A stretch of 64,000 nt of DNA from Bradyrhizobium sp. MOS002 (GTDB lineage: Bacteria > Pseudomonadota > Alphaproteobacteria > Rhizobiales > Xanthobacteraceae): positions 744,001 through 808,000 of the forward strand of contig NZ_PYFX01000003.1 in NCBI RefSeq assembly GCF_003020115.1, read 5' to 3'. Position 1 is the first letter of the stretch; each line of letters begins with the position of its first letter. Under the pieces are notes generated by a model, which worked only from the letters and a program-made list of their open reading frames with translations, made no database searches and was not told the DNA's origin. The position numbers and the translations under genes are program-made. This document shows positions 35,366 to 38,461 of the stretch, one piece after another.

Positions 35366-35529
35366 CAGCATTGCGCAAAGCTGCCGCCATGTTGCCGCGC
35401 TCGCGCCGCTGGGCTGCGCGATTGTTGGCACTGTCATGCGCAGTGCGCTGCCGGAATGACGGGCCACTGGACAGCGCACCCTCGCCCACTTGTCCGGGGC
35501 GATTTCCATGCTAGGCTGGCGTCACAGAT

Positions 35530-35592
35530 GGGGATGGAGTCCCCCGACAACCGCCCGGCGGCTTGTGACCGTAGTGGGCTGATGACTCCTGC
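35530..35592 (+). promoter_or_regulatory. Fluoride riboswitch (crcB motif) aptamer
   Basis: The sequence fits the crcB/fluoride aptamer. P1 is GGGG (35530-35533) with CCCC (35542-35545). The loop segment GGAGTC (35536-35541) pairs exactly with GACTCC (35584-35589) to make the pseudoknot. P2 is GCCC (35553-35556) with GGGC (35576-35579), and the conserved GCTGATGACTCCTGC end is present. Downstream genes encode two CrcB fluoride channels. Fluoride binding should stop terminator formation and turn the operon on. Confidence 0.95.
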
Positions 35593-35641
35593 TTGAGGAG
35601 GGGCAATTTCTAAGCCTTTGCCTTCGGCGGGAGCATGGACA

Positions 35642-35664
35642 AACCCGCCGCTGGCGGGTTTTTT
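35642..35664 (+). terminator. Intrinsic terminator of the fluoride riboswitch
   Basis: An 8-bp stem (AACCCGCC with GGCGGGTT, loop GCT) is followed by a run of six T, 50 bp after the aptamer. An upstream GGCGGG at 35626-35631 can pair with CCCGCC at 35644-35649 and compete with the terminator stem, forming an antiterminator. This is a typical switch at the transcript level. Confidence 0.85.
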
Positions 35665-35712: not shown

Positions 35713-36924
35713 GTGACGACGACGACGACACCGAATGTTGCACGTGCGGGGCTGCCCAGGGGGATCTGGGTGCTCGGTTTCGTCTCGATGCTGATGGACG
35801 TCTCTTCCGAGATGGTCCACGCGTTGCTGCCGGTCTATCTCGTCACCGTGCTCGGCGCCTCCACGCTCACCGTCGGCTTCATCGAGGGCATTGCCGAGGC
35901 GACCGCCTCGATCACGAAAATCTTCTCCGGCGCGTTGTCCGACTGGCTCGGCCGGCGCAAATTGCTCGCCGCGCTCGGCTACGGGCTCGCCGCGCTGACA
36001 AAACCGCTGTTCCCGCTTGCCCCCAGCGTCGGATGGCTGGTTGCCGCGCGCTTCATCGACCGCGTCGGCAAGGGGATTCGCGGCGCGCCGCGCGATGCAC
36101 TGATCGCCGATATCGCACCCATCGGCCTGCGCGGCGCGAGCTTCGGCCTGCGGCAGTCGCTCGACACCATCGGTGCGTTCGTCGGGCCACTCATGGCGAT
36201 CGGCCTGATGTGGTGGACGGCGGACAATTTTACGGCGGTGTTCTGGGTTGCGGTGCTGCCGGCGTTCCTGTCGTTCGGACTGATCGCGTTCGCAGTGAGC
36301 GAGCCGGAGCCTGACCCAGACCGGGAGCCGTCGAAGAATCCGCTAAACATGGCCGCGATGCGCCAGCTTGGATCCGTGTACTGGCGCGTGGTCGCGGTTG
36401 GCGTCGTGTTTACGCTGGCGCGCTTCAGCGAAGCCTTTCTGATCCTACGCGCGCAGAACATCGGGCTCAATGCCATGTGGGTGCCAGCCGTGCTGGTGCT
36501 GATGAACATCGTCTATGCGTTGTCGGCCTATCCGGCCGGCGTGCTCTCGGACCGGATCAACCGCACCGGCCTGCTCGCGCTCGGCCTCGTCTTCCTTGCC
36601 GGCGCCGATCTCGCGCTCGCGCTGCTGCCAAACCTTGGGGGCCTCGCCCTCGGCGTCGTGCTGTGGGGACTGCATATGGGATTGACGCAAGGCCTGCTCT
36701 CGGCCCTCGTCGCCGACGCAGCGCCACCGAGCCTGCGCGGCACCGCGTTCGGCTATTTCAACCTGTTCACCGGCCTTGCCATGCTGGCCGCAAGCGTAAT
36801 CGCCGGCGCGCTGTGGGATAGCAACGGTCCGGCCGGCACATTCCTGGCCGGGCTCGGATTCGCCCTGGTCGCGCTCGTGGGGCTATTCGCCGTCGGCAAC
36901 GGGCTGGCAACGGAGGAGAGATGA
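35713..36924 (+). CDS. MFS transporter in fluoride operon
   Basis: A 403-aa inner-membrane carrier with twelve predicted helices, the first gene after the fluoride riboswitch. GTG at 35713 is preceded by AAGGAG. Motif A is seen as GALSDWLGRRKLLA near residue 75, and a second copy as GVLSDRINRTGLLA. The segment RFIDRVGKGIRGAPRDALIAD also fits a branch of carriers with unknown substrate. A role in pushing out fluoride or a fluoride-containing compound is inferred from position only. The next gene starts 19 bp after it. Confidence 0.88.
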   Translation: MTTTTTPNVARAGLPRGIWVLGFVSMLMDVSSEMVHALLPVYLVTVLGASTLTVGFIEGIAEATASITKIFSGALSDWLGRRKLLAALGYGLAALTKPLFPLAPSVGWLVAARFIDRVGKGIRGAPRDALIADIAPIGLRGASFGLRQSLDTIGAFVGPLMAIGLMWWTADNFTAVFWVAVLPAFLSFGLIAFAVSEPEPDPDREPSKNPLNMAAMRQLGSVYWRVVAVGVVFTLARFSEAFLILRAQNIGLNAMWVPAVLVLMNIVYALSAYPAGVLSDRINRTGLLALGLVFLAGADLALALLPNLGGLALGVVLWGLHMGLTQGLLSALVADAAPPSLRGTAFGYFNLFTGLAMLAASVIAGALWDSNGPAGTFLAGLGFALVALVGLFAVGNGLATEER

Positions 36925-36943
36925 TGACGGGGGGCTGTTCGCC

Positions 36944-37333
36944 GTGCTGAGCGGAGTGCTTGCGATCATGATTGGCAGCGTGCTCGGCGGCTGTGCGCGC
37001 TATTCCATCTCCGGCGCGATCGCGCGGCGGCTGGGCGAGACGTTTCCGTGGGGCACCGTGACCATCAACGTCACCGGCGCCTTCCTGATCGGCATTTTTG
37101 GCGCATTGGCGACCCATCCTGGCTCGGCCTTCGCCGCGCCCAATCCATGGCTGTTCGCGGTAACCGGCTTTCTTGGTTGCTACACAACGGTGTCCTCGTT
37201 CAGCCTGCAAACGCTGATGCTGGCGCGCAACGGCGAGCCGATCCGCGCGCTCGGGAATGTCGCGGTCTCGGTCGGGCTGTGCCTCGCGGCCGTCAGTTGC
37301 GGCTTCCTCCTGGCGGACACTCTGGGAGGCTAG
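36944..37333 (+). CDS. crcB: Fluoride channel subunit CrcB (first copy)
   Basis: A 129-aa four-helix membrane protein of the Fluc/CrcB family, which forms dimeric fluoride channels. Conserved points are GGCARY (R19), the Asn in TVTINVTGAFLIG (N42) and the TM3 break FLGCYTTVSSFSL. The first of the two pore-lining Phe residues is Val83 here; only Phe86 is kept. GTG at 36944 is the only start that fits. A second crcB gene starts 6 bp later, so the two proteins probably form a heterodimer. Confidence 0.94.
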   Translation: MLSGVLAIMIGSVLGGCARYSISGAIARRLGETFPWGTVTINVTGAFLIGIFGALATHPGSAFAAPNPWLFAVTGFLGCYTTVSSFSLQTLMLARNGEPIRALGNVAVSVGLCLAAVSCGFLLADTLGG

Positions 37334-37339
37334 AGACAG

Positions 37340-37768
37340 ATGAAGTCCCCCTCCTCTGCGGATCGCTGGCGCACCGCGACGCTCTATGCCTGGGTTGCCG
37401 CCGGCAGCATCGTCGGCGGGCTGACGCGCTATCTGGTCGGGCTTGCGCTCGACACGGGTCCCGGCTTCCCCGTCGCGACGCTGTTCATCAACGCCACCGG
37501 CTCGCTGATCATCGGCTTCTACGCGACGCTGACCGGGCCCGACGGCCGCGTGCTGGCGCGGCCCGAGCACCGGCAGTTCGTCATGACCGGGTTCTGCGGC
37601 GGCTACACGACGTTTTCGACCTTCAGCCTGGAGGCCTTCCGCCTGTTCCACAGCGGCATGAAATATACGGCGCTCGCCTATATCGCCGCGTCCGTCATTT
37701 GCTGGCTGGCATCGGTATGGGCAGGCCATATCATAGCCAGCAGCACCAACCGCTTGAGAAGGAGCTGA
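37340..37768 (+). CDS. crcB: Fluoride channel subunit CrcB (second copy)
   Basis: A 142-aa second Fluc/CrcB subunit with a short polar N-terminal extension. It has GGLTRY (R30), Asn51 in LFINATGSLIIG and an intact TM3 motif FCGGYTTFSTFSLEAF with both Phe residues (F92, F95). It therefore carries the fuller set of pore residues of the pair. It lies between crcB1 and the DUF190 gene, with 6-bp and 2-bp gaps, in one operon. It acts in the inner membrane to let fluoride leave the cytoplasm. Confidence 0.95.
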   Translation: MKSPSSADRWRTATLYAWVAAGSIVGGLTRYLVGLALDTGPGFPVATLFINATGSLIIGFYATLTGPDGRVLARPEHRQFVMTGFCGGYTTFSTFSLEAFRLFHSGMKYTALAYIAASVICWLASVWAGHIIASSTNRLRRS

Positions 37769-37770
37769 CC

Positions 37771-38112
37771 ATGCAAATCCCCAATCAGGCAGTTTCGCTC
37801 CGGATCTTCATTGGCGAGAGCGACCATTTCGACGGCAAGCCGCTCTATGAGGCGATCGTGATGACGGCACGCGAACGGCATCTGGCCGGCGCCACCGTGC
37901 TGCGTGGCCCCATGGGCTTCGGCAAGTCGAGCCGGCTCCACACCTCCAAAATCCTGCGGCTCTCGGAAGACCTGCCGCTGCTGATCGAGATCGTCGACAG
38001 CGAGGACAACATCAACGCATTCCTGCCCATCCTGGATGGCATGATGTCGAGCGGCCTGATCACCTTGGAGAGGGTGCAGGTCTTGCAATATGGTGAGAAG
38101 GCCGCGCGCTGA
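37771..38112 (+). CDS. DUF190 (PII-like) protein
   Basis: A 113-aa cytoplasmic protein of the DUF190 family, related in fold to PII signal proteins. The start MQIPNQAVSLRIFIGESDHFDGKPLYEAIVMTARE and the block GATVLRGPMGFGKSSRLHTSKILRLSEDLPLLIEIVD (in part) are family features. GAAGGAG lies just before the ATG, 2 bp after the crcB2 stop. DUF190 genes often follow crcB, so it may regulate the channel in response to a nucleotide or ion; this is not proved. Confidence 0.92.
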   Translation: MQIPNQAVSLRIFIGESDHFDGKPLYEAIVMTARERHLAGATVLRGPMGFGKSSRLHTSKILRLSEDLPLLIEIVDSEDNINAFLPILDGMMSSGLITLERVQVLQYGEKAAR

Positions 38113-38155: not shown

Positions 38156-38461
38156 ATGAACGACACTGTTGCCAAACCGAAAACCAGGACGAAGACCAAG
38201 GTCGAGCGGCCGAAGCTGCATAAGGTCATCCTGATCAACGACGACTTCACGCCCCGCGAATTCGTCACGATGATCCTCAAGGCCGAATTCCGCATGACCG
38301 AGGATCAGGCCTACAAGGTGATGATCACCGCCCACAAGCTCGGCGCCTGCGTGGTCGCCGTGTTCACCAAAGACGTCGCAGAGACCAAGGCCACCCGCGC
38401 CACCGACGCCGGCCGCACCAAGGGCTATCCGCTGCTGTTCACGACGGAGCCGGAGGAATAA
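38156..38461 (+). CDS. clpS: ATP-dependent Clp protease adaptor ClpS (ClpS2-like)
   Basis: A 101-aa adaptor that delivers N-degron proteins to ClpA-ClpP. The binding pocket residues N28, D29 and D30 (ILINDDFTP) and His60 are kept. The gatekeeper position, Met in E. coli (M40), is Arg34 here (TPREFV), as I recall for the second alphaproteobacterial paralogue ClpS2, whose specificity is narrower. A GGGAGGCGG site supports the ATG at 38156. It is 43 bp after the DUF190 gene in the same direction; clpA is not in the window. Confidence 0.93.
   Translation: MNDTVAKPKTRTKTKVERPKLHKVILINDDFTPREFVTMILKAEFRMTEDQAYKVMITAHKLGACVVAVFTKDVAETKATRATDAGRTKGYPLLFTTEPEE

Follow-up and report, generated by a model that had tools for sequence, protein, structure and literature searches.

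Why should a transporter of the major facilitator superfamily (MFS) be the first gene under a fluoride riboswitch, ahead of the fluoride channels themselves? The question is raised by an operon in a 64,000-nucleotide (nt) stretch of Bradyrhizobium sp. MOS002 (contig NZ_PYFX01000003.1, positions 744,001 to 808,000; hereafter the window), in which a fluoride riboswitch is followed by an MFS gene, two crcB genes and a gene of the DUF190 family. The arrangement is genuine, and it is conserved as a variant form of fluoride operon, with an MFS protein of a known type in a regulatory context that is new. The joint explanation that fits best, to which we give roughly even chances, is an attenuated fluoride operon in which a CrcB1/CrcB2 heterodimer would export fluoride, the MFS protein would be an accessory transporter and the DUF190 protein a regulator. 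Fluoride riboswitches serve to reveal what cells need against fluoride, and a conserved MFS in first place, whose family also occurs in islands for lead, chromate and cobalt/nickel, connects fluoride stress with the handling of metals; it hints that coping with fluoride may also need a transporter with another cargo. An earlier sequence-only reading, which had proposed an undescribed, possibly fluoride-exporting transporter family, was borne out in part: the MFS gene does come first, the linkage is conserved and DUF190 proteins do occur in fluoride operons, whereas the new family did not hold up and fluoride export by the MFS protein is improbable.

The aptamer (35521-35598; forward strand, as are all features of the operon) belongs to RF01734, with a covariance score of 53.5 bits that clears the gathering score of 34 (E = 5.3e-12); it is recovered in the leader alignment and is the only match to this family in an Rfam scan of the whole genome. 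The MFS gene (35713-36924; GTG start; 403 amino acids) is the first gene after it and matches PF07690 at 163.3 bits (cut-off 33.4), Pfam and NCBIfam models resolving only the superfamily. It is followed by crcB1 (36944-37333; GTG start) and crcB2 (37340-37768; ATG start), which the sequence-only reading had passed over, and by a DUF190/UPF0166 gene (37771-38112; ATG start; 113 amino acids; PF02641, 136.6 bits, cut-off 23.4), which it had rightly placed at the end of the operon. Both crcB products score above the cut-offs of CrcB/Fluc equivalog models for fluoride channel subunits (crcB1, NF010799, 214 bits, cut-off 129; crcB2, TIGR00494, 83.9 bits, cut-off 80.45). The gaps between consecutive genes are 19 nt (MFS-crcB1), 6 nt (crcB1-crcB2) and 2 nt (crcB2-DUF190), so that the genes from MFS through DUF190 are very likely transcribed together. 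The conserved downstream neighbour clpS (38156-38461; NF009564, 201.8 bits) starts 43 nt after the end of the DUF190 gene and may or may not be co-transcribed with the operon. No enolase, pyrophosphatase, uspA or organofluorine enzyme is present among the five genes scanned, the remaining window not having been searched for an organofluorine enzyme.

The conservation of this arrangement was assessed in the 80 best relatives of the MFS gene in a genome collection, which fall into two clean groups of 62 (L062-L123; 84-97% identity) and 18 (69-79% identity). A riboswitch lies directly upstream of the MFS gene in 61 of the 62 close relatives, the exception (L088) having only 112 nt of sequence 5' of the gene, and crcB lies downstream in all 62; a one-genome accident as the source of the linkage is ruled out by these counts. 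The linkage was counted with a covariance model itself built from the relatives and the window, since a regular-expression pattern misses some of the riboswitches. Two crcB genes, DUF190 and clpS follow in 47 loci; one, different crcB gene and clpS follow without DUF190 in 13; a single crcB gene, a DUF190 match (63%) and clpS are found in one, and one (L085) is cut at a contig end. Downstream clpS is present in 61 of these loci, the remaining one ending at a contig edge. The DNA around the MFS genes of the 18 relatives at 69-79% identity contains no riboswitch (save a 23.4-bit remnant in L128), no crcB, no DUF190 and no clpS. A locus from another genus (L167) has the order riboswitch-MFS-crcB1-crcB2-DUF190 with an MFS protein of 73% identity. 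The gene order is thus conserved far beyond chance across many Bradyrhizobium, and the linkage that the sequence-only reading had suggested looking for in other genomes is found in the close relatives, in another genus and in the further fluoride-gene contexts described below. It is sparse at a broader scale: among the 289 genomes of a class sample, 42 carry the MFS, with a riboswitch 5' only of the window's own copy and 3' of one more (a covariance scan of 29 of these loci agrees with the place lists). In this sample 0.034 MFS-riboswitch pairs within 5 kilobases (kb) would be expected and one was seen, an expectation that does not control for ion-resistance islands. Median ratios of nonsynonymous to synonymous substitution rates (dN/dS), taken from at most 300 random pairs with pairs of dS up to 0.05 dropped, are 0.119 for the linked MFS, 0.152 for crcB1, 0.194 for crcB2, 0.096 for DUF190 and 0.084 for clpS; unlinked MFS homologues give 0.149 (6 genes) and 0.139 (9 genes).

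The promoter-like box, the aptamer and the downstream platform are all kept in the leader alignment. The putative expression platform (35586-35664) was delimited from the consensus fold of 59 leader stretches, from hairpin energies and from coordinates read off the sequence. The 59 leaders folded are those of the window, of L167 and of 57 of the 61 linked loci, which were found by pattern; the switch strands are visible by eye in the remaining four as well (L077, L091, L103 and L109, the last with four unread bases adjoining them). GGAGT (35536-35540) and ACTCC (35585-35589) are presumably the pseudoknot strands of the aptamer, an assignment read from the sequence and the structure of this aptamer class rather than computed. 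In the consensus fold, which extends from the 3' strand of the aptamer to the terminator, this 3' strand, CTCCTGCT (35586-35593), pairs with GGCGGGAG (35626-35633), and a CCCGCC-GGCGGG hairpin stands ahead of a T run. CCCGCC (35644-35649) has two alternative partners, GGCGGG at 35626-35631 (antiterminator) or GGCGGG at 35653-35658 followed by six T residues (terminator), and the two alternative hairpins, folded singly, are nearly equal in energy (-10.3 and -10.1 kcal/mol). Because this terminator/antiterminator pair is conserved, the MFS gene is predicted to be induced by fluoride, and we infer that the leader is an on-switch in which fluoride blocks termination. When fluoride is absent, CTCCTGCT would pair with GGCGGGAG; CCCGCC would then be available for the terminator hairpin, and the operon would be off. 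When fluoride is bound, the pseudoknot would hold ACTCC, and the GGCGGG so released would pair with CCCGCC as an antiterminator, allowing transcription to proceed into MFS-crcB1-crcB2-DUF190. The operon would in this way be placed under fluoride-inducible transcription attenuation.

The fluoride-operon MFS genes gather in one clade of 23 rows in an 82-row tree built by a quick method with no bootstrap (support of 99 in the Shimodaira-Hasegawa-like approximate likelihood-ratio test, SH-aLRT). The clade consists of 17 fluoride-operon rows (one of them, L148, without the aptamer), five rows with a decayed or missing aptamer and one row beside clpS. Of the 64 fluoride-operon loci, 16 entered the tree together with the window, 48 linked loci being omitted as near-copies and L144, L145, L184 and L187 as repeats. 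As the rows form a single clade, one origin of the riboswitch-linked MFS, followed by later loss or loosening, is probable. L148 retains the whole MFS-crcB1-crcB2-DUF190-clpS order and the terminator, the aptamer being missing about 100 nt 5' of the MFS gene, and its operon is predicted to be always attenuated. The MFS gene of L142 adjoins clpS without a riboswitch match. In two leaders of elkanii-type Bradyrhizobium (an assumed label, like B. japonicum-type, drawn partly from record titles), L124 and L128, no RF01734 match was found by Rfam at E values up to 1. These leaders are read as decayed because a promoter-like box and an aptamer-like core, and in L124 also a terminator, align with the functional leader; the idea that they represent a new RNA was dropped on the same grounds. 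The decayed-looking stretches themselves (L124:4850-4985 and L128:4880-4960) lie 5' of MFS genes that lost crcB and could also be a re-purposed aptamer. For L143, L146 and L147 the leaders were assessed visually.

The AlphaFold 2 model of the MFS protein has a mean pLDDT of 86 and matches the fold of YajR with a Z score of 40.6 (381 aligned residues, root-mean-square deviation 3.1). In Pfam it matches PF07690, PF00083 and PF12832 (below cut-off) and no CLC family, so that it does not belong with the CLC-F exporters. The protein is 59% identical to an MFS protein encoded on a Cupriavidus plasmid (L207), where its gene has an FTR1-family gene, cadR and a P-type ATPase as neighbours. The L207 protein is in turn 99.6% identical over 262 amino acids to a fragment of a C. 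metallidurans CH34 plasmid (NC_007971.2:117369-118154), which we take to be pMOL30; the match carries no gene name. In the accessible text of papers on this strain, pbrU, a gene interrupted by Tn6049, belongs to the pbrUTR-pbrABCD region of pMOL30 and encodes an MFS permease (PMC2864759, PMC3431237, PMC3384475), from which we infer that the fragment is pbrU. The window protein is, judged by sequence, a PbrU-type homologue and not PbrU itself, because its operon consists of crcB1, crcB2 and DUF190 genes and has no pbrTRABCD cluster. It shares its MFS family with CH34 PbrU but differs in setting, since the window lacks pbr genes, a fluoride riboswitch replaces the PbrR-controlled promoter, and the split copy is that of CH34. 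A new, undescribed family is ruled out by this PbrU-type identity, homologues being frequent in metal-resistance islands (pbr, chr, dme and RND).

ChrB precedes an MFS homologue in 13 of 63 genome rows, some of which are repeats, and in 6 of 21 plasmid records hand-picked from 85 matching ones (two with one small gene between). Other plasmid neighbours include dmeF, RND pumps, MntP, chrA, PAP2, undecaprenyl-diphosphatase and pbr-type genes. ChrB_N is the most frequent Pfam family (13) in the 90 neighbours scanned out of 113, the 23 omitted being for the most part repeated instances of an amidohydrolase-like, non-metal context. The nearest solved structures by sequence are NorA and YajR, and the many fold matches include MCT1, YajR, MFSD10, NorA and LmrP, of which NorA and LmrP are efflux pumps. 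The MFS protein is probably a proton-coupled exporter that was taken over from the repertoire for metal and oxyanion resistance. The conserved core hardly differs between riboswitch-linked and unlinked homologues: comparison of 17 fluoride-operon rows with 58 others (L223 left out) revealed, at the chosen thresholds, only four clade-specific positions (I/V 131, P/R 200, G/A 230 and L/A 381), and the cargo is therefore probably unchanged from that of the metal-island relatives. As an accessory under fluoride stress, the protein would most likely move a metal, a metal complex or an ion upset by fluoride, not fluoride itself. Such a role fits the accessible text of a 2024 review, according to which operons that carry fluoride exporters are enriched in transporters of divalent cations (PMC11139923).

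The same family adjoins fluoride genes in other contexts. Plasmids of Ca. Manganitrophus (Nitrospirota) show the order riboswitch-CLC-MFS in both of the two records scanned out of three matching ones. The CLC gene (L208:2898-4735), which is absent from the gene table, bears GNNLI, GREGT and GEVTP, and the MFS gene starts 265 nt past it; these motifs are CLC-F signatures in the accessible text of PMC11139923. A ChrB-MFS-RND-riboswitch-crcB lineage is found on two Bradyrhizobium plasmids, with annotated genes, and, with RND genes assigned from size and order, on two contigs of other genera. In G590 the MFS gene ends just 5' of a riboswitch that precedes an antiporter and crcB (genes identified by eye), and on an Ideonella plasmid an annotated crcB-DUF190 pair lies about 4 kb from the MFS gene, behind a weak 19-bit riboswitch match. 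The ChrB-MFS-RND-riboswitch-crcB block (L164, L165, L206/L297 and L300), common to conjugative Bradyrhizobium plasmids and to contigs from two further genera, is probably mobile; on both Bradyrhizobium plasmids a phosphoglycerate mutase adjoins crcB, and the MFS proteins of L206 and L165 are identical. A broader proposition, which we regard as rather unlikely, would make the PbrU-type MFS proteins a third class of transporters in the response of bacteria to fluoride. They would have been recruited on at least two occasions (into the Bradyrhizobium operon and into the Nitrospirota riboswitch-CLC-MFS arrangement) and would move a metal-fluoride complex or a fluoride-displaced metal, and DUF190 would be a natural protein-level regulator of fluoride-linked transporters.

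A use of the MFS protein in the fluoride response is favoured by its first position, its conservation, its dN/dS and its recurrence beside fluoride genes; it is disfavoured by the small number of clade-specific positions, the persistence of copies without crcB or riboswitch and the sparse linkage in the class sample. With evidence on both sides, we favour an accessory function linked to metals or to other ions. Several observations pull against this interpretation. The recurrence near fluoride genes could reflect a generic clustering of ion-resistance genes. MFS genes of elkanii-type Bradyrhizobium survive where crcB and an intact riboswitch are both missing; their persistence together with the loss of the aptamer in L148 implies that fluoride control is dispensable in places. 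The assignment to metals is drawn from neighbouring genes only, with 23 mostly non-metal neighbours outside the tally; an amidohydrolase-like gene precedes the MFS in 13 of 63 rows (one Bradyrhizobium group), and several plasmid neighbourhoods show no metal gene. The sequence and fold matches also include the importers or facilitators GlcP, GLUT4 and MCT1, so that efflux is suggested while direction and cargo are not fixed. The CH34 copy of pbrU is called probably inactive in the accessible part of one paper, and in that of another its insertion is not clearly linked to lower tolerance.

Some of these points would suit a simple passenger, a generic efflux pump inserted once between riboswitch and crcB in an ancestor of the Bradyrhizobium lineage and since kept for reasons independent of fluoride, or tolerated. 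The gathering of the fluoride-operon MFS genes in one clade agrees with a single insertion, as does the retention of the gene in elkanii-type relatives after crcB and the intact riboswitch were lost, and unlinked homologues have nearly the same core and a similar dN/dS. A passenger would, however, hardly be expected to hold first place in 61 of 62 loci over two operon forms, through changes in crcB copy number and DUF190, nor to have relatives adjoining fluoride genes in unrelated contexts; this alternative is possible but on the doubtful side.

Its place directly after a fluoride riboswitch, the efflux pumps among its matches and its many invariant charged residues (in the alignment, for example, D29, E33, R117, R237 and E240) could also point to a second, proton-driven fluoride exporter, an F-/H+ antiporter that would lower fluoride beyond what a passive channel achieves, and another transporter, BenE-I of P. 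putida, aids fluoride tolerance according to the accessible text of PMC13104614. The metal-island homologues nevertheless share the conserved core, and fluoride export is already accounted for by the Fluc pair of the operon. The bacterial exporters given in the 2024 review (PMC11139923) are Fluc and CLC-F, and neither "MFS" nor "major facilitator" occurs in its main text as accessible. These points, and the copies that persist without riboswitch or crcB, make fluoride export by the MFS protein, the first suggestion of the sequence-only reading, improbable. Export of an organofluorine, an organic phosphate or another metabolite that accumulates when fluoride blocks enolase is suggested by the spare enolase, phosphoglycerate mutase and pyrophosphatase genes of other fluoride operons (PMC11139923 and PMC5533749, as accessible) and by a weak, partial match between TIGR00881, a model for phosphoglycerate transporters, and the L207 protein of PbrU type. 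That match, at 73.1 bits, is far under the cut-off of 407.75, MFS models cross-match, and the five-gene scan described above yielded no organofluorine enzyme; such a cargo is very improbable.

In the favoured explanation, fluoride would leave through the two channel subunits. A charge bias was calculated as the charge of the N-terminus, loop 2-3 and C-terminus minus that of loops 1-2 and 3-4, with the window included. It is -3 to -5 in all 49 crcB1 products and +4 to +7 in all 48 crcB2 products, and it is 0 in 13 of 14 single crcB products. The biases are a signature of a predicted heterodimer with fixed opposite orientations (crcB1 N-out/C-out, crcB2 N-in/C-in), and the single crcB would form a dual-topology homodimer; the exit route for fluoride would then be a Fluc heterodimer with its subunits locked in opposite orientations. 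The single crcB of L119, with a bias of +5 and a longer assigned N-terminus, speaks against this assignment. An adjacent crcB pair of opposite charge bias recalls the Lactobacillus acidophilus Fluc heterodimer named in the accessible text of PMC11139923. The two window proteins read TTVSSF (crcB1) and TTFSTF (crcB2) at the matching site.

The DUF190 gene accompanies the crcB pair in all 47 complete loci and is absent with a single crcB in 13 of 14 (L085 left out); it is a genuine member of the fluoride operon. Its product matches two proteins of solved structure, PH1503 (2dcl; E = 1.9e-27) and TM0021 (1o51; E = 1.3e-21), which were deposited as hypothetical proteins, whereas the window protein sits in a fluoride operon. 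The fold of these relatives is, we assume, PII-like, and the DUF190 protein would be a PII-like cytoplasmic factor of fluoride operons that probably regulates membrane transport. The sequence-only reading had it gate the channel, and a CrcB-specific gate is possible. In a phylum sample, however, only 7 of the 30 best-scoring DUF190 loci, many of which come from one family, have a crcB gene in the stretch (about 1.5 kb on each side), two of the seven being Bradyrhizobium, and 23 have none. In L212/L312, moreover, the gene ahead of DUF190 is antiporter-like and under riboswitch control, and no crcB separates the two, which rules out a tie to crcB alone; DUF190 thus belongs to fluoride operons yet need not act on CrcB. 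The L312 arrangement (L312:5824-7582, in G446) consists of a fluoride riboswitch, a cation:proton antiporter-like gene and DUF190, divergent from a crcB gene. According to the accessible text of the 2024 review, protein-level regulation of fluoride channels could matter and no natural mechanism has been identified (PMC11139923). Located beside a predicted heterodimeric Fluc, and once beside a riboswitch-controlled antiporter, DUF190 is a concrete candidate for such a regulator.

Among described systems, the fluoride operon of E. cloacae FRM GI3 (PMC5533749, as accessible) resembles that of the window in having an RF01734 aptamer before crcB and one switch driving several genes. Compared with known fluoride operons, that of the window leads with an MFS gene and has two crcB genes and DUF190; the term "MFS" is absent from the main text, as far as accessible, of both PMC5533749 and PMC11139923, and a literature search of titles and abstract openings found no paper linking MFS or DUF190 to fluoride riboswitches.

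A much denser concentration of fluoride genes was seen on a 73-kb contig (G258:C49; L152-L155), which holds 14 RF01734 elements by pattern, with 13 in the genome among the matches listed. Judged by eye, its genes resemble crcB, CLC and enolase genes, two DUF190 genes, a pyrophosphatase gene, genes for formate hydrogenlyase subunits and one for another MFS; crcB, DUF190 and a ChrB were matched there by tblastn. Two other genomes, G021 and G233, have 13 RF01734 matches each among the matches listed.

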